Below, in pieces: positions 2,111-34,367 of a DNA stretch of 34,367 bases (position 1 is its first letter; each line of letters starts with the position of its first letter). Source of the stretch: a virus; IMG/VR virus record IMGVR_UViG_3300010392_003162, positions 1-34,367 of that record. The stretch is one strand, 5' to 3'. The notes below the pieces were generated by a model. It searched no databases and was not told the origin of the DNA. It worked only from the letters and a program-made list of their open reading frames with translations. The position numbers and the translations under genes are program-made.

Positions 2111-3028
2111 CTACAAAACTAAATCGTAAAATACACTTTCTGGAATGATCATTAAATCCTGACCATTTATAATTAGATTTTCTGCTTTTTTCTGTTTTGA
2201 ACTTTTACCATCTTTTATACTTGCACAATAGTCATTATTGCCAAGAATAAGATAGTTGGTTTTTTTTGTTACGTTATTACCAATCAAACCACCTAAATCT
2301 ACAACTAATTGCATAGCATCTTTTCTTGGCATTTTATCAAGTTTACCAGTAAAAACGCAAGTGCGTCCATATAAGATATGAGTTTCGTCAAACTCCATAT
2401 TATTAGTTGTAATCGAGCTAATATCGAACTTGTAATTACTATTAACTTTCTTAAATATTTCATCTGTGGTTAAGTTTTCGTTAATCATGTATTCTTGCAA
2501 AGCTTTTAGGCAAGCAAATGTTATGTGGCAGTCTTTTAAAGCACGATGATTTCCTAACGTTTCAATTTCATAATAACTAGCGATTGTAGAAAGCTTGTGA
2601 TTCTCTAAATCTTTATTTATTCTTCTAGAGAATCGAAGAAGATCTATAAAGTTGTTTTCAAGTTTGATGTTATTATGTCGAAGATTATCATATAAAAAGT
2701 TAATATCAAAATTGACATTGTGTCCAACTAAAGTATGATCTTTAATAAACTCCATGAATGTATTAGTGATTTCATTGAACTGAGGCTTGTTGAGCAACAT
2801 CTCATTAGTTATACCAGTAAGATCAGTTATAAAGTCATCAACTTTATATTCTGGTTTGATAAGTTGTTGATATTCTCTAATGATTTTATTATCTTTTATA
2901 TGCAAAGCCCCAATTTCTATAATTTCATCCCACTGGGGCATTAATCCTGTAGTCTCAATATCAATCACAATATACTCATCAACAAAATGAGTTAAACTTT
3001 TTCCTTTGAATTCACGAATTTCTTTCAT
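2111..3028 (-). CDS. DnaQ-like 3'-5' exonuclease with C-terminal BRCT domain
   Basis: A 305-residue protein. Residues about 15-185 are a DEDDh exonuclease of the Pol III epsilon type: DIETTG, GHNVNFD and the late H-R-A-L-K-D motif are all present, so it should be active on DNA or RNA 3' ends. Residues about 220-305 read as a BRCT domain (GRTCVFTGKL, then an LVVDLGGLIG segment and TKKTNYLILG), the pattern seen in NAD-dependent ligase and in Firmicute exonuclease-BRCT proteins. I chose the ATG at 3028 because GGAAGG sits just upstream; an ATG five codons earlier has no site. The gene lies between repressor and protease, fenced by hairpins on both sides, so it looks like a gene expressed in the lysogen (moron). 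Role unknown; repair, nucleotide scavenging or attack on invading DNA are all possible. Confidence 0.85.
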   Translation of the reverse strand: MKEIREFKGKSLTHFVDEYIVIDIETTGLMPQWDEIIEIGALHIKDNKIIREYQQLIKPEYKVDDFITDLTGITNEMLLNKPQFNEITNTFMEFIKDHTLVGHNVNFDINFLYDNLRHNNIKLENNFIDLLRFSRRINKDLENHKLSTIASYYEIETLGNHRALKDCHITFACLKALQEYMINENLTTDEIFKKVNSNYKFDISSITTNNMEFDETHILYGRTCVFTGKLDKMPRKDAMQLVVDLGGLIGNNVTKKTNYLILGNNDYCASIKDGKSSKQKKAENLIINGQDLMIIPESVFYDLVL

Positions 3029-3084
3029 ATTACATCCTTCCATTAATCACATATTAATTACATAGATTACCATTTTGTTGTGAA

Positions 3085-3110
3085 ATAGAAACACTGCAAT
3101 CTCTGCAGTG
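3085..3110 (-). terminator. Terminator of the repressor gene
   Basis: CACTGCA at 3092-3098 and TGCAGTG at 3104-3110 form a 7-bp stem with a 5-base loop directly after the repressor's TAG; on the minus strand it is followed by TTTCTATTTC. It separates the repressor from the exonuclease gene downstream. Confidence 0.65.
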
Positions 3111-3434
3111 CTATTTTTGATTTTTTTTCTTCAGATTCTCAATTAGACCTTTTATCATTTTAATATCATCATCATTTAAACCATCTGTTGATAAGGTATT
3201 CATAGCTATTTTAATTTCAGAATCTTTTCTATGTTCACTTCTTCCTAATAAGTAATCTAAAGATACATCAAAGTATTCCGCCATTCGAGTAAGCATATCT
3301 GCCTCAGGCATCTGAGTGCCTTTTTCATATCTAGATATAGAACTTTTATTCAAAAAGAATACATCTGCAAATTGTTCTTGTGTTAATTTTTTTTCTTTTC
3401 TAAGTTCTTTTACTCTTTGTTGAAAATTAGCCAT
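3111..3434 (-). CDS. Short CI/ImmR-like repressor (HTH XRE)
   Basis: A 107-residue repressor with an N-terminal Cro/C1-type HTH (residues about 6-62: LRKEKKLTQEQFADVF, NKSSISRYEKG, LDYLLGR) and a short charged helical tail. It lacks the S24 peptidase domain of lambda CI, so it cannot cleave itself; like ImmR of ICEBs1 it would need a partner protease, and one is encoded at 1410-1961. The ATG at 3434 is preceded by GGAGG; an upstream TTG at 3446 would place that site inside the gene. Transcribed away from the Cro-like gene, with GTTGC-type operators overlapping its own promoter, it probably shuts off the early operon and regulates itself. Confidence 0.85.
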   Translation of the reverse strand: MANFQQRVKELRKEKKLTQEQFADVFFLNKSSISRYEKGTQMPEADMLTRMAEYFDVSLDYLLGRSEHRKDSEIKIAMNTLSTDGLNDDDIKMIKGLIENLKKKNQK

Positions 3435-3450
3435 TTTTACCTCCAAATTA

Positions 3451-3495
3451 ATTATACTATTAGTTGCAGTATAAACAACAAAAGTTGCAACTAAA
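3451..3495 (-). promoter_or_regulatory. Candidate promoter(s) of the repressor gene
   Basis: On the minus strand TTGTTT (3478-3473) and TATAAT (3456-3451) are 16 bases apart, but would start transcription almost at the ribosome binding site. A second choice, TTTAGT (3495-3490) with TATACT (3473-3468), also spaced by 16, gives a more normal leader. Both are overlapped by the GTTGC operators, so binding would govern the repressor's own expression. Confidence 0.45.
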
Positions 3496-3500
3496 GAAAC
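3463..3500. promoter_or_regulatory. Operators O1 and O2 of the lysogeny switch
   Basis: Two 17-bp sites with the form GTTGC-N7-(G/A)(C/A)AAC: GTTGCAGTATAAACAAC at 3463-3479 and GTTGCAACTAAAGAAAC at 3484-3500, centred 21 bp apart (two helical turns). Each has one good and one weaker half. They overlap the repressor promoter and lie upstream of the early promoter's -35. Confidence 0.65.
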
Positions 3501-3517
3501 TTTTTTTATTAAATCTA

Positions 3518-3545
3518 TTGACGAAAGTAAATAATTTGATATACT
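3518..3545 (+). promoter_or_regulatory. Early rightward promoter (PR-like)
   Basis: TTGACG at 3518-3523 and TATACT at 3540-3545 are spaced by 16 bases, and TG one base before the -10 makes it an extended -10 promoter. Transcription would start near 3552 and run into the Cro-like gene. Operator O3 lies just downstream, where a bound repressor would block it. Confidence 0.8.
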
Positions 3546-3555
3546 TGTATCATAA

Positions 3556-3572
3556 GTTGCGCCAAATGCAAC
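3556..3572. promoter_or_regulatory. Operator O3 (perfect GTTGC-N7-GCAAC)
   Basis: GTTGCGCCAAATGCAAC is a perfect inverted repeat of 5-base arms, placed at about +5 to +21 of the early transcript and directly before the Cro-like gene's ribosome binding site. It is the most symmetrical site in the switch region and so the likely strongest operator for early repression. Confidence 0.7.
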
Positions 3573-3586
3573 AGGAAGGAGGTATA

Positions 3587-3820
3587 ATGAAATCTAACGA
3601 ATTGAAATCAAAGCGCATAAAATTCGGTTATACTCAGACTGATGTTGGACAAGCTCTGTCAATTTCTAAATCTTCTTATAGTAAAAAAGAAAATGGAGTT
3701 CAAAATTTCTCGATTGCTGAAATAAAGCTTTTAAGGAAGATTCTAGAGATAAACGACTTAGAGTTAGTTGATATTTTTTTTAATGACTCAGTTGCGTTTG
3801 ATGCAACATTTATGCCGTAA
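3587..3820 (+). CDS. Cro-like HTH regulator
   Basis: A 77-residue HTH protein, first gene of the rightward operon and divergent from the repressor, so in the Cro position. The HTH reads RIKFGYTQTDVGQALSISKSSYSKKENG (residues about 10-36). The ATG at 3587 follows AGGAAGGAGGT; the frame is open further upstream, but that extension runs through the promoter and operators and cannot be translated from this transcript. The last 30 bases of the gene contain a perfect copy of the operator (3791-3807), which suggests feedback or repressor looping. Function is inferred from position and fold. Confidence 0.8.
   Translation: MKSNELKSKRIKFGYTQTDVGQALSISKSSYSKKENGVQNFSIAEIKLLRKILEINDLELVDIFFNDSVAFDATFMP
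3791..3807. promoter_or_regulatory. Operator O4 inside the 3' end of the Cro-like gene
   Basis: GTTGCGTTTGATGCAAC is a second perfect GTTGC-N7-GCAAC site, 235 bp downstream of O3 and within coding sequence, close to the start of the next gene. It may be an auxiliary operator for DNA looping or a roadblock to polymerase. Confidence 0.6.
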
Positions 3821-3892
3821 TTATAAGTTTATTATGTGAATAATAAGCATAGTAATTATTTGAAAACTGAATATCTAAGGGAGGATTATGAA

Positions 3893-28235: not shown

Positions 28236-28660
28236 TGTTACCAATTGTACCTAATGTTAAAACTGAAAAGAAAAGCGTTTCTGATCAGAAAGGAATTGTA
28301 TATAAATTTGATTTTAAATTGGGTTCTTATGTTTTGGAAGAAGGACAATTAGTAGAGCTAACCTCAGTAGAAGATCAAGTAAAACAGTGGTTACAATTCT
28401 TCATTAATACTGATTTAAATATTTATCCAATATACAAAGGTTTAGACTATGGTTTAAATCTTAAAAAATATATTGGACACAAGACTATACCACTTGGTCT
28501 AATAGCTTCAGAGATTTCCGATCAATTAGAATTAGGAATTAAATTGAATGATGGTATCAAAGAAGTTATAAGCGTTAGAGCAACAAAAGAAAATGAAGTT
28601 TTGAAACTATCTATAAATGTTAAAATTTCAAATGATGAAATTGTGGAGGTGATTCTATAA
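28232..28660 (+). CDS. DUF2634/gp25-like baseplate wedge protein (XkdS-like)
   Basis: A 142-residue protein of the XkdS group, related to T4 gp25, which starts sheath assembly: VYKFDFKLGSYVLEEGQLVEL, VKQWLQFFINTDLNIYPIY, YGLNLKKYIG. It overlaps the preceding gene (ATGA); ATG 28235 is an equal alternative. The stop overlaps the next start (TAATG). Confidence 0.82.
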   Translation: MMLPIVPNVKTEKKSVSDQKGIVYKFDFKLGSYVLEEGQLVELTSVEDQVKQWLQFFINTDLNIYPIYKGLDYGLNLKKYIGHKTIPLGLIASEISDQLELGIKLNDGIKEVISVRATKENEVLKLSINVKISNDEIVEVIL

Positions 28661-29727
28661 TGTCTGAGACTGTGTTAAATGAACTGCTTGGAGGTATGTC
28701 TGATAAGTATGATAAAAGACCAGGACACCTGGTAAATGATTTTATGGCTGCGGTGGCAAATGCAGTTGAAAAAAGAGACAAAAAGATTGATGTTGTAGAA
28801 TCAAAATTAGATGTAAGAAATCTTAAGGACGAAGAGTTAGATCTTTATATAACACAAAATAGTGACAAGACTAGACATCTAGCAACATATGCTTCTGTGA
28901 TTGTAATCATTGTCGGTAATTGCAATTTTGTTAAAGGTGATATTGCAGAAACATCTTCAGGTATTCAATTTGAGTTTGTTGAGAGTATCGATGTTGTTGA
29001 TACTGCAGAAACAACTTTAAAAGCAGTGATACCTGGTTCAAGTGGAAATGTTAGAGCAAATACAATTACTCAATTGCCTGTTACAGTTCAAGGCTTAACA
29101 AGCATTAATAATCCTTTAGATGCACAAGGTGGATATGATAAGGAAGAAGATCAACATTATCTAGAAAGATTCTTAGAAAGTGAACAGGTCGAGGAAACTC
29201 AAGGAAACAAAGCTCAACACAAATCTTGGGCGAAATCTATACAAGGTGTTGGTGATGCAAAAGTATTTCCTCTTCAAAATGCTGAAAGTGTAACAACTGA
29301 AAATAGTGTTTTAACTGTCATAGTTGATAGTAACATACTACCAGCTTCGGTAGAGCTGATTAATACTGTACAAGAGATTATTAATCCACTATCAGAAAAT
29401 GGTCATGGCTCCGGCCTTGCACCTTTGGGATGTTATGCCTATATAAAGAGCGCTGATGCATTAAATCTGAATATAACCTTTGTTGGAGTGTTAGCTCAAG
29501 GGGCAATTAATGAATCCGTTAAAACAAGCGTTTCGTTAAAGATTAAAGAATATTTGAAAGATGTCTATAAGAATAACAAGACAATCTCTTTTGCCAAAAT
29601 GGGCGTGGCAATTTTAGCTGCAGATGGTCTTGAAGATTATACAAATCTTATGATTAATGGAAGTACTGAAAATATTCTTGTTCCTGATAAATCAGTAGCA
29701 GTGTTAGAGAGTGTGGTGATTTCATGA
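28660..29727 (+). CDS. Baseplate J-like wedge protein (XkdT-like)
   Basis: A 355-residue wedge protein of the Baseplate_J/gp47 family. Typical parts are LDLYITQNSDKTRHLATYASVIV, GIQFEFVES, the PGSSGNVRANTI segment, INNPLDAQGGYDKEEDQHYLERFL and TQGNKAQHKSWAKSIQGVGDAKVFP. With the XkdS- and XkdU-like proteins it builds the baseplate wedges. Position and length agree with PBSX. Confidence 0.9.
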   Translation: MSETVLNELLGGMSDKYDKRPGHLVNDFMAAVANAVEKRDKKIDVVESKLDVRNLKDEELDLYITQNSDKTRHLATYASVIVIIVGNCNFVKGDIAETSSGIQFEFVESIDVVDTAETTLKAVIPGSSGNVRANTITQLPVTVQGLTSINNPLDAQGGYDKEEDQHYLERFLESEQVEETQGNKAQHKSWAKSIQGVGDAKVFPLQNAESVTTENSVLTVIVDSNILPASVELINTVQEIINPLSENGHGSGLAPLGCYAYIKSADALNLNITFVGVLAQGAINESVKTSVSLKIKEYLKDVYKNNKTISFAKMGVAILAADGLEDYTNLMINGSTENILVPDKSVAVLESVVIS

Positions 29728-30281
29728 CAGATACGCTTTTAGTGATGTTAAGTGAAATTCCTCCAATTATGAGAAGTGATATTTTACTAAATGAGTTATA
29801 TAAATCAATAGATCAAGTTTTAAGTACCTTAGATTCAAGAATTGATGTTGTCTTTAATGAAAGATTTGTGGATCATGCTACTGGACTTGGATTAGTATAT
29901 CTTGAAGAGCGATTAGGAATAACAACTGATTTAAACAAACCATTGGTTCAAAGGAGATCACTTATAAAAGCTAGGTTGAAGGTTAAAGGAAAAATTAATC
30001 TAGCTAAGATAGATAATATTTGTGATTCATGGATTAATGGCCAAGTAGATACATCGATATCGGGCAATACGATAAATGTTAAATTTGTAAGTGTTGGTGG
30101 TATTCCTCAAGGAGTTTCGGATTTAGAAAAAACCCTTCTAGAGATTATACCATCACATCTTAAAATAAACTGGCAATACTCGTTTATGACTTGGGATATG
30201 TTTGAATCTCATAATTGGACATATGATGAGTTTGAATCTCAAAATCTAAATTGGGATGAACTAGAGAAGTTTGTTTCATAG
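29724..30281 (+). CDS. DUF2313 baseplate protein (XkdU-like)
   Basis: A 185-residue protein of the XkdU/YmfQ (DUF2313) type: a helical start (LNELYKSIDQVLSTLDSRIDVV), GLVYLEERLGI, LVQRRSLIKARLKVKGKINLAKI, and the end with aromatic repeats (WDMFESHNWTYDEFESQNLNWDELE). It links wedge and fibre. It overlaps the baseplate J gene (ATGA). Confidence 0.85.
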   Translation: MTDTLLVMLSEIPPIMRSDILLNELYKSIDQVLSTLDSRIDVVFNERFVDHATGLGLVYLEERLGITTDLNKPLVQRRSLIKARLKVKGKINLAKIDNICDSWINGQVDTSISGNTINVKFVSVGGIPQGVSDLEKTLLEIIPSHLKINWQYSFMTWDMFESHNWTYDEFESQNLNWDELEKFVS

Positions 30282-30295
30282 AAAGGATGTGAATA

Positions 30296-32038
30296 ATGGG
30301 AAGTACAAATAAAACTACCAAGATTGGATTAAATCAATATATTGGTTCTGATTATCCCAAACGAGAAGATTATAATCTTGATATGAGTATAATCGATGCA
30401 GTTTTAAAGCAGTTAGATGAACCGATTATACCAATCTATAATGGGCGAGAGTTAATTATTACTGCTAGCTCTGTACTTAAAACAATAAAGTTGAAGATTG
30501 ATCAAAATGTAACTGGTGGAGCAATCACTATAAAGAAAAATGGTGAGGTTGCAAAATCTTTGTTATTACCAAACGGTGATCCAGTCATAGAGTTGTTAAT
30601 TGAAACAACTTTTTATCTAGTTGTTGAGGAAACCGAGGCTTTTATCTTAGCCCCTACAGGGGCTAAATTAATTGGGAATGCTCCACCTCAATATGTATTG
30701 TCGGGATATGGCTACATGAATGCTGAAGGTGAACAGGTTGGTACAATGTCTAATAAGACAGGAACAGTTGTTCAAGGCACTTGGGTTAATGGGGACAGAA
30801 ATAATGAAGTAGAAGTATTCGTACCCACTGGATTTTATCCAGGAGGGGAACAGAACCTAACAATGTTAGAAGTAAATTTAATATCTGCCAATATCAAAGC
30901 AGGGGCTAAAATATTTAACGTAGTAGGAAAGTCTACTGTTGTGGATACAGAAGATGGATTTATAGATAATACTAGCAGAATTGTATCTGGCTTTGCTGGA
31001 TATGCAGATGGCGTTAGGTATCAAGGGACGCTTAAAAATAATTGGGACGGTGACCATCCAGCTTCCACGCTAGTCAGCAGTGGAAATCACGTGTATTTAA
31101 CCATACCGGAAAATGCTAGGTATTCACCTTCAGCTAGAATAAGGGGTTATGATGCTGACTTTGACGCAGCAAACATCAAAGACAAAGTTAGTATATTTGG
31201 AAAGACTGGTACTTTCACATCAGATGCAGACGCGGATGGTGGTAGTATTATGGCTGGAAAAACCGCGTATGTTAAGGGGGCTAAAGTCACTGGTACTATG
31301 CTAAAGAGAGTAAGCGGTGATTATGCGGCAGATTACGTCGCAAAAGTAGGTAACACATTGAAATTAGGTATACCGGACTCGGGTTACTATAATGATGCTG
31401 TTAGAATACAAGCTGTTGATAATGATTGGATTGAATCTAATATAAAAAAAGATGTTAACATATTCGGCAAGCTAGGGACATACAATCCTAGTCATATAGA
31501 GTCTGTTCAATTTATGAATGAACAAGCAGTTTCATCCCCAACTTATCGCTTGAAAAATATACCTGTACCAGTTGACCCTACACGGTCAATTGTTGAAGCT
31601 ACTTGGAGGTCAGCCGCAAATGGCACTGCATTTGTAAACGGAATTACTTCTACTGTTTCGTTTCATGATATGGTAGGTGATAAAGTTTCATGTCATTATT
31701 TATATAATGAATCAGAGTACCCCATCTTTGATATAACGGTTACTCAATATAGAGCAGATGCAGTAAGGCGTAAGCAAGATAAAGAAGTCACTTTTTCTGC
31801 GGGAGAAACTAATAAAGTTAATAAACAATTTACGATACCAATTACAGCTTTATATGATATTGAAAAAACAAAGTTAGTATTAACTTGGAGATTGTCAGAT
31901 GGCTCAGCATATACAGTAGGTTTAACTCAAATGAAGTATCATTTAACCACTAATAGTATTATTGTCAATGTGGGTTCAACTGGTGGGTCGACTTTAGATG
32001 AGTACATATTTAATGTTCAAATAGTTGAATTTTGGTAG
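30296..32038 (+). CDS. Tail fibre / receptor-binding protein with duplicated module
   Basis: A 580-residue tail fibre. Residues 1-25 hold the attachment start common to PBSX-type fibres (TKIGLNQYIGSDYPKREDYNLDM). The middle repeats one module twice, around 31080-31220 and 31348-31490: G-N-x-x-x-L-x-I-P, then a YS/YY-x-x-A-x-x-I segment and NIK-x-x-V-x-IFGK-x-GT. The C-terminal 200 residues are beta-rich and would contact the host surface. Codons here are less A/T-biased than in neighbouring genes, pointing to exchange of host-range parts. No separate fibre chaperone is recognised. Confidence 0.82.
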   Translation: MGSTNKTTKIGLNQYIGSDYPKREDYNLDMSIIDAVLKQLDEPIIPIYNGRELIITASSVLKTIKLKIDQNVTGGAITIKKNGEVAKSLLLPNGDPVIELLIETTFYLVVEETEAFILAPTGAKLIGNAPPQYVLSGYGYMNAEGEQVGTMSNKTGTVVQGTWVNGDRNNEVEVFVPTGFYPGGEQNLTMLEVNLISANIKAGAKIFNVVGKSTVVDTEDGFIDNTSRIVSGFAGYADGVRYQGTLKNNWDGDHPASTLVSSGNHVYLTIPENARYSPSARIRGYDADFDAANIKDKVSIFGKTGTFTSDADADGGSIMAGKTAYVKGAKVTGTMLKRVSGDYAADYVAKVGNTLKLGIPDSGYYNDAVRIQAVDNDWIESNIKKDVNIFGKLGTYNPSHIESVQFMNEQAVSSPTYRLKNIPVPVDPTRSIVEATWRSAANGTAFVNGITSTVSFHDMVGDKVSCHYLYNESEYPIFDITVTQYRADAVRRKQDKEVTFSAGETNKVNKQFTIPITALYDIEKTKLVLTWRLSDGSAYTVGLTQMKYHLTTNSIIVNVGSTGGSTLDEYIFNVQIVEFW

Positions 32039-32059
32039 AAAGGAAAGTGTGATACGAAT

Positions 32060-32476
32060 ATGAAAAGAATAATAACAGTAAATGAATATGGTAAAGTTAT
32101 TTCAATTGAGTATACTGCTGATGAGAGTTTTGAGTTAACAAGTAATCAGTTCATTTGTGATATAGCAAAGATAGGTCAATTAAGAACTCAAGATGGTAAT
32201 TATGAGAATGACCCGAAAGCCGAGATAGTGAATAAGTTCGGAAGAGCATTTCGTAATAAAAAAGAAGCATATGAAGAATTTATAGAAGCAGAAAAAATGC
32301 TTGGCGTTGATAGTGCAGAAGCTGTGGCAGCTAAAGAAGCATATTTGAGAATCTCGACAACGAATCCGGATAAAAGTAGATATGAGCTAGAACAAGAAGT
32401 TAAAACTACACCAAGTAAAATTAATGAAGCCAAAGATGAATTGATGCTTGAATTGATTGAAGGAGGTTTAATTTAG
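32060..32476 (+). CDS. Hypothetical protein in the XkdW position
   Basis: A 138-residue protein between fibre and XkdX, where PBSX has xkdW, but I see no clear sequence match. The first half is beta-like (IITVNEYGKVISIEYTAD), the second acidic and helical with an Ala-rich stretch (DSAEAVAAKEAY). It may help fibre assembly. The SD (AAAGGAAAG) is far from the ATG. Confidence 0.6.
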   Translation: MKRIITVNEYGKVISIEYTADESFELTSNQFICDIAKIGQLRTQDGNYENDPKAEIVNKFGRAFRNKKEAYEEFIEAEKMLGVDSAEAVAAKEAYLRISTTNPDKSRYELEQEVKTTPSKINEAKDELMLELIEGGLI

Positions 32477-32601: not shown

Positions 32602-32631
32602 TGGTGTATTTTTTTATTTAAGGTGGTGAAC

Positions 32632-32952
32632 ATGACAATAGAAGTTGCTTTAGTAATTTCGGTTATATCAGTTATGTTTGGTGTTTATCAAGGTCTTTCA
32701 AATTTAAAAAGAAATGAAAAGGCAGATACTAAAAGGGATGCATCTCAGTTAACAACAGTTATTGTGAAACTTGAGAGCATAAGCACCGGTATAACAAGAA
32801 TCGAAAATGAGATGTCTAGTATTAAAGAAGATGTCAAAGAAGATCATGAGCGATTGGTGAGGGTTGAAGAATCTTCGAAACAGGCTCATAAAAGGTTAAA
32901 CGAGTTGGAAAAAAGATTGCAAGGAGCAAGTTTTGAGGAGGTGACAAAATGA
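32632..32952 (+). CDS. Membrane-anchored coiled-coil lysis accessory (XhlA/holin-associated)
   Basis: A 106-residue protein with one N-terminal membrane helix (VALVISVISVMFGVYQGL, residues about 5-22) and a long coiled coil (IVKLESISTGITRIENEMSSIKEDVKEDHERLVRVEES). It lies directly before the endolysin like XhlA in PBSX, though XhlA has its helix at the C-terminus; the layout is closer to BhlA-type proteins. ATG 32632 is preceded by AAGGTGG; two GTG codons just before it belong to that site. It may be a holin or holin helper. Confidence 0.7.
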   Translation: MTIEVALVISVISVMFGVYQGLSNLKRNEKADTKRDASQLTTVIVKLESISTGITRIENEMSSIKEDVKEDHERLVRVEESSKQAHKRLNELEKRLQGASFEEVTK

Positions 32953-34367
32953 TTAAACCATTAACGATTATAGATGGTATTATCCAGGATAAGTCGATAG
33001 ACGGGATTCCTATCAAAGTACAAATAGTTAATCCTAGAGGTCTAAGAAATGTTAGGACGTTGATTCCTATGGATGATCCTATTGGTGGGACAATTCACAA
33101 TACTGGAAATAGTGCTGTATCTGCAGGTGATGAGATGCACGCTGACTGGCTTCAAAATGTAGAGAATGCAGATAGACTTTATATATCACCACATATATTC
33201 GTTGATCATGATTCAATTACATTAGTTATTCCACTTAATGAAGTTGGTTATCATGCCGGTGATGGTAAAGGTGATGGTAACTATAGAACAATTGGTATTG
33301 AGATTTGTGAGAACATCAATATTGAAAAAGCTGAAGAAAATGCTAAGAAATTATGTGCAGCATTAATGATGACATTTAAGAATTTTAAGCTATTCAAACA
33401 TCAAGATTGGTCGGGTAAATATTGTCCTCATATCATTCTTGATAGAAAGATTGGGTGGACTAGTTTTGTTAATGATGTAATGAGTTATGTAGAAAATGAA
33501 CTGATTAAACTGGTTTATACTCCTGATCAAAAGGAAAATATAATCATTTCGACATCAAAGCCTATGTCAATTGATGATCTTATTAAAGCTTTAGAAAGAA
33601 ATCAAATAGAAGCTTTAGAACCAAAAGTATATACAATTGCAGAATTACAAGAAACTCTGTATTACTTAGGTTATGATTGTGGTCCATTTGATAATTCTAA
33701 AGGACCAACAACTACTGCAGGCTTTAAAGCTTTTCAAAGACTTAATAGTTTAGATGATACTGGTAATATGGATCCAGAATCTATAAGAATCATGGAAGAG
33801 TTAAAGACTTCTGATTCAGAGTATAAAACATACTGGTTTAATGGTAGTGAGATTCATGTATTCTATGGCGACTTAGATAAATACGAACCTCATTTGAATC
33901 TAGGTCAATATGGTAAATATGAAGTTTTATCTGAATTAGATAATGAATATGTTGCAGCCATCAACGGACAATTCTTTGGTGGTGGACGAGAAGGCCTTGG
34001 CTTGTTAATAGCTAACGGTCTTTATTATTATGCTGGACATCATGAGAAGTTTGCAAACTGGATCCAAAACAAAGATGGCACTACTGAGATTAGAGATGTA
34101 GATAAATCTGAATATTGGAAGCTACAGTACAATGCTCATTTCGCTATTGGGACATCATGGCCATTAATCATAGAGGGTGAGTATGTAGATATAGTAGATT
34201 CTAGTATCAGTCATTTTGATGAAAGACATCCTAGATCAATATTAGCTCATTCTATGACTCATAATACTTTATGTTTGATAGCCATCGATGGAAGAAGAAG
34301 AGATTCGATAGGAATGACTGCAAATGAAACTCAAGAAGCGTTAATGTTCATTACAGAAATAACAGAA
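32949..34367 (+). CDS. Modular endolysin, cut by the window end: amidase + PG-binding + phosphodiester glycosidase
   Basis: At least 473 residues, open at the window end. Residues about 40-185 are a zinc N-acetylmuramoyl-L-alanine amidase (Amidase_2, T7 lysozyme type) with ligands His50 (IHNTG), Cys159 and His161 (HQDWSGKYCPH). Residues about 228-283 match a PG_binding_1 repeat (AELQETLYYLGYDCGPFDNS, then TTAGFKAFQRLN). Residues about 333 to the end look like a NAGPA-type phosphodiester glycosidase: AAINGQFFGGG, GLLIANG, HFAIG, HPRS, CLIAIDGRRRDSIGMTANE. Amidase with peptidoglycan binding is standard for lysis; the third domain is unusual in an endolysin and may act on wall polymers. GGAGG lies before the ATG, which overlaps the preceding stop (ATGA). 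Confidence 0.88.
   Translation, partial: MIKPLTIIDGIIQDKSIDGIPIKVQIVNPRGLRNVRTLIPMDDPIGGTIHNTGNSAVSAGDEMHADWLQNVENADRLYISPHIFVDHDSITLVIPLNEVGYHAGDGKGDGNYRTIGIEICENINIEKAEENAKKLCAALMMTFKNFKLFKHQDWSGKYCPHIILDRKIGWTSFVNDVMSYVENELIKLVYTPDQKENIIISTSKPMSIDDLIKALERNQIEALEPKVYTIAELQETLYYLGYDCGPFDNSKGPTTTAGFKAFQRLNSLDDTGNMDPESIRIMEELKTSDSEYKTYWFNGSEIHVFYGDLDKYEPHLNLGQYGKYEVLSELDNEYVAAINGQFFGGGREGLGLLIANGLYYYAGHHEKFANWIQNKDGTTEIRDVDKSEYWKLQYNAHFAIGTSWPLIIEGEYVDIVDSSISHFDERHPRSILAHSMTHNTLCLIAIDGRRRDSIGMTANETQEALMFITEITE

Follow-up and report, generated by a model that had tools for sequence, protein, structure and literature searches.

The last gene of the window, by which we mean the whole stretch of 34,367 nucleotides analysed here (IMG/VR virus record IMGVR_UViG_3300010392_003162), encodes a putative phage endolysin with three Pfam domains in the order Amidase_2, PG_binding_1 and NAGPA (DUF2233, PF09992). 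All three lie above their gathering cut-offs, in agreement with the family and order that an earlier note had proposed from the letters; the strings AINGQFFGGG, HPRS and IDGRRRDSIGMTANE, which that note had quoted as a phosphodiester glycosidase pattern, are located in this ORF. The C-terminal part belongs to the NAGPA/DUF2233 family by profile, fold and motifs, and its activity is predicted. We lean slightly towards reading the protein as a two-enzyme endolysin whose NAGPA domain would hydrolyse phosphodiesters of wall polymers, likely at the LCP-made anchor; from these features we infer its activity, its substrate and the advantage for lysis. The gene, its domains and its upstream neighbours are as follows.

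28660..32476, + strand: baseplate J, a Mu Gp48-like tail protein and two unassigned proteins, of which one is probably a tail fibre; all lie upstream of the lysin
32623..32952, + strand: small protein (phrog_1863) that has a hydrophobic stretch at its N-terminus, a coiled coil and a weak XhlA-like match; overlaps the lysin start
32949..34367, + strand: endolysin gene, ATG start, truncated at its 3' end by the end of the record so that 473 codons out of about 519 remain
33090..33431, + strand: Amidase_2 (N-acetylmuramoyl-L-alanine amidase), residues 48-161, Pfam 7e-14
33636..33794, + strand: PG_binding_1, residues 230-282, Pfam 6.6e-9
33813..34367, + strand: NAGPA/DUF2233, structural domain from about residue 289

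Residues H50 (33096), H151 (33399), K157 and C159 (33423) of the amidase domain are invariant across the lysin clade, and we take them to be the Zn ligands and catalytic Lys of the T7-lysozyme family. The ORF is open at its 3' end because the viral record stops at 34367, and in this contig-cut form the NAGPA Pfam match covers residues 333-466 (8.9e-13, profile positions 2-125 of 169), with N339 (33963), R429 (34233) and D447-G448-R449 (34287-34295) inside the window. An NCBIfam search of the protein gave no match close to any cut-off. In PHROGs the amidase part corresponds to endolysin, and the NAGPA part finds only a weak match, to a family of unknown function.

The missing C-terminus could be read in complete relatives. 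Three are IMG/VR contigs (L003 5080-6639, 519 aa; L004 3613-5172, 519 aa; L009 5001-6557, 518 aa), and a fourth, L002, carries a partial lysin of nearly full length. A further copy of 519 aa, 76% identical to the L003 protein and surrounded by phage tail and lysis genes, is found on a contig of Acidaminobacter sp. JC074 (L025 6001-7560), a member of the Clostridia, family Acidaminobacteraceae. The L004, L009 and L025 lysins are 69-76% identical to that of L003, and by alignment every relative keeps the domain order of the window lysin. In those read through to the stop, the C-terminal end is formed by NATNLDGGGS and the conserved region ER-V-G. NLDGGGST (481-488) and R506, which lie beyond the end of the window contig, are thus present in complete relatives, and the full domain is matched in the L003 protein (P0001) and in P0002 (7.4e-24 and 8e-25, profile positions 2-168 of 169); neither outcome named by the earlier note as overturning its assignment, a failed domain search or the loss of key residues past the window, was observed. 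The JC074 copy was found with the full-length alignment as query against genome contigs, where the NAGPA part as a single-sequence query gave no match. Among 41 family genomes and 394 order genomes, JC074 was the only one with a match over positions 1-518.

The fold agrees with the family assignment. We modelled PG_binding_1 and NAGPA of the L003 protein (P0001 residues 223-519) with AlphaFold2, using an alignment with 48 other viral NAGPA domains; this 49-row alignment replaced one of 5 rows that gave a pLDDT of 33, and yielded a mean pLDDT of 92.8 and a pTM of 0.91. The top solved match is 3ohg (BACOVA_00430; Z 25.2, 240 residues), followed by 6pku, the guinea pig uncovering enzyme (Z 25.0, 219 residues), and Foldseek gave an E of 4.6e-14. 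The N-terminal part of the model resembles the domains with which lysins and transglycosylases bind peptidoglycan. All 49 diverse viral NAGPA domains have A479 and N481-G486, and each of N339, R429, S487 and R506 is found in 47 or 48 of them; all of these residues are retained in P0001 and aligned in the solved NAGPAs. The family motifs ING, R, DGR, NLDGGGS and the C-terminal R are all found, the last two in relatives, past the window. BFVD entries with this fold carry names such as cell wall hydrolase autolysin, CHAP domain protein and PlyB-like endolysin.

The window lysin sits in a lysis cassette, and the gene order around it is the usual tail-then-lysis arrangement. The overlapping phrog_1863 protein (32623..32952) is probably a lysis accessory protein; in L009 a Phage_holin_4_1 gene stands in its place, directly upstream of the lysin. 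Downstream of the lysin, L003, L004 and L025 encode a protein of 106-112 aa with one hydrophobic stretch, and similar TM genes (106-116 aa) follow short, NAGPA-less prophage lysins (L029-L032). Domain content, clade-invariant residues and cassette position together point to an Amidase_2-type phage endolysin, for which host lysis is predicted.

What might the second enzyme do? In the mechanism that we propose, a temperate phage of Acidaminobacter-like Clostridia would make a lysin carrying two enzymes: the N-terminal amidase would cut the MurNAc-L-Ala bond, PG_binding_1 would keep the protein attached to peptidoglycan, and NAGPA, at the C-terminus, would hydrolyse alpha-glycosyl phosphodiesters (sugar-1-P-O-R) of wall-attached polymers. 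The most likely bond would be the LCP-made anchor joining GlcNAc-1-phosphate to MurNAc C6, and once the polymer is stripped off, peptidoglycan would be exposed, which would favour lysis or release. The NAGPA family reaction, known from the human uncovering enzyme, is hydrolysis of GlcNAc-alpha-1-P-6-Man, and wall polymers are attached to MurNAc at C6; we suggest the anchor as substrate because its bond resembles the one cut by the uncovering enzyme. That enzyme is known for releasing terminal GlcNAc, so the active site would have to be open to admit a bond beneath a long polymer. It (6pku and relatives) and BACOVA_00430 (3ohg) share fold and conserved motifs with the lysin NAGPA but have no lysin fusion, and the animal enzyme takes terminal GlcNAc off GlcNAc-P-Man; on this substrate, according to what Das et al. 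reportedly found in 2013, BACOVA_00430 has ~1% of the human enzyme's activity. The fold, the conserved motifs and the repeated fusion to peptidoglycan hydrolases fit the earlier note's suggestion that the domain could open teichoic or phosphopolysaccharide polymers of the wall.

On the host side, wall polymers are linked by LCP enzymes to the MurNAc of peptidoglycan by way of GlcNAc-1-phosphate (PMC8807736), and LCP genes were present in all six host-family genomes searched. Acidaminobacter sp. JC074 carries a polysaccharide cluster (L154 1-19501) with LCP, sugar-1-phosphate transferase, flippase-like and glycerophosphotransferase genes, from which the substrate of the lysin may come. A correlation between the NAGPA lysin and the teichoic glycerophosphotransferase, tempting in 6 genomes, was dropped: Glyphos_transf occurs in 4 of 41 host-family genomes and one host is known, so that its presence in JC074 is not significant.

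The fusion of NAGPA to lysins is already known, and the order Amidase_2, PG_binding_1, NAGPA is a new version of it. We scanned viral contigs for the motif A-x-NLDGGG[ST] and obtained 91 stretches. Pooled with loci collected before, they amount to 57 non-redundant ORFs, 54 with a NAGPA match. Their partner domains are PG_binding_1 (12), Amidase_2 (6), Amidase_3 (6), SPOR (6), SH3_3 (5) and, more rarely, SLH (2), an Rv2525c-type glycosidase-like domain (2) and Peptidase_M15 (1), counts that take in four complete members of the window lysin clade and, since the ORFs were selected by motif, give no frequency estimate. One-by-one Pfam reading confirmed the architectures of ten viral ORFs. Among uncultured phage lysins, L135 (NAGPA-Amidase_2-SLH) and L020 (NAGPA-Amidase_2) combine the same two enzymes as the window lysin in a different order, whereas L114 and L075 (NAGPA-Amidase_3) and L100 (NAGPA-SH3-Amidase_3-SH3) differ in the hydrolase. 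L084 (4136-5428, - strand; Peptidase_M15-PG_binding_1-NAGPA) matches the window lysin in having hydrolase, binder and NAGPA in that order, but its hydrolase is unrelated. All six show low sequence identity to the window lysin. Tail genes and a Phage_holin_4_1 gene precede the lysin in L135; in L114, tail genes precede it and a small TM gene follows.

Named phages and published surveys contain such proteins as well. The endolysin of Flavonifractor phage Chenonceau (ON453904, WAK79829.1), annotated merely as endolysin and adjoining holin and hemolysin genes, is likewise NAGPA plus an amidase, but its NAGPA domain is N-terminal and the amidase, Amidase_3, is of a different family. A 2026 survey lists four CHAP-NAGPA-SH3_3 endolysins of human gut phages, although the words 'phosphodiester' and 'teichoic' are absent from its main text (PMC13284279). 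Like the window lysin, each of these joins NAGPA to a peptidoglycan hydrolase and to a domain that binds the wall; they differ in having CHAP for Amidase_2, SH3_3 for PG_binding_1 and a central NAGPA (PMC13284279). In Bacillota proteins, NAGPA occurs with prok-TelC and sometimes NlpC/P60 (PMC12419801). Our literature search, mostly outside subscription journals, returned no paper joining 'endolysin' with 'phosphodiester glycosidase' and no description of the Amidase_2, PG_binding_1, NAGPA order. The earlier note did not know this domain order as an established type of endolysin, a point that needs softening in view of the survey, the named phage and the viral contigs.

Two other sets of proteins came up in these comparisons. 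The lysins of Flavonifractor phages Cormatin and Castelnaud (L155 2548-4047 and L157 2548-4044) are SH3_3 plus Amidase_2; we ruled them out as NAGPA-Amidase_2 proteins, as the N-terminal stretch gives no NAGPA Pfam match. In Cormatin this stretch is NAGPA-like with a degenerate motif, LDAGSSS, and is possibly a catalytically dead NAGPA; catalysis by NAGPA would thus not be universal among lysins. In SPO1-like phages (L005 and L006, both 2578-3891), the gene that directly follows the one for a NAGPA protein is annotated as tailspike (Goe2), and the SP8 NAGPA protein is annotated as an amidase/S-layer protein, with NAGPA its only Pfam domain above cut-off.

A broader idea, possible but in our view doubtful, is that phage lysins widely carry NAGPA as a second, largely overlooked enzyme, which would cut the sugar-1-phosphate anchor joining LCP-attached wall polymers to peptidoglycan and be the direct phage counterpart of LCP ligases. 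If the domain acts as we propose for the window lysin, a single protein of some phages would strip wall polymers and cut peptidoglycan, and a function could be assigned to a module present in many phage lysins. It would also offer a reagent to free wall teichoic-type polymers at their anchor, for which mild acid is used today (PMC8807736).

The NAGPA domain could instead be catalytic on repeats or side groups of capsule or exopolysaccharide and serve mainly in receptor destruction or in releasing progeny from debris once lysis has happened, more than in breaking the wall. The tailspike neighbourhood in SPO1-like phages, the annotation of SPbeta yomE as a phosphodiester glycosidase and the glycerophosphotransferase in the JC074 cluster are in line with such a role, as are Curtobacterium prophage NAGPA-like proteins interpreted as receptor-acting depolymerases (PMC9862828). 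We nevertheless regard it as unlikely for the window clade, where NAGPA has an amidase and PG_binding_1 as fusion partners, not a tail protein, and the gene lies in a lysis cassette. Still less probable, to our mind, is a wall-binding module that recognises a polymer and leaves it uncut: although NAGPA occupies the C-terminus, the usual site of lysin binding domains, where short sister lysins carry other small domains, and although the Cormatin lysin lends a binding role some weight, the window lysin already has a PG_binding_1 domain, the NAGPA-wide motifs are intact in its clade and the domain is under purifying selection.

The same selection analysis bears on whether the fusion is real. The amidase and NAGPA domains are both under purifying selection, with rough pairwise NG86 dN/dS values, several with saturated dS, of 0.05-0.28 for NAGPA against 0.06-0.18 for the amidase. 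The linker between the domains is less constrained, as it should be if the multidomain protein is real. Because the window ORF is itself cut by the record end, one might suspect an artefact of assembly or annotation, but the continuous frame of 518-519 codons in L003, L004, L009 and L025 makes this explanation practically negligible, the independent full-length copies already contradicting it.

As for the origin of the two-enzyme lysin, the closest amidases to the window clade, 51-59% identical, belong to prophage lysins of Peptostreptococcales, the same bacterial order. These short endolysins (L029-L033 from the host family, L048 from the wider sample) resemble the window lysin in amidase and lysis position but lack PG_binding_1 and NAGPA, having instead a short C-terminal region that in L031 and L048 is SLH-like by eye. 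In the amidase tree the NAGPA lysins group together with modest support (86/72) beside the short lysins, within a clade supported at 100/95. The simplest reading of these sequences is that NAGPA was gained once in this phage lineage.

At the other end of the window, a gene on the - strand (2111-3043) encodes a DnaQ-like exonuclease (RNase_T) fused to a BRCT domain, near genes for an integrase (233-1387) and an IrrE-like peptidase (1410-1961).
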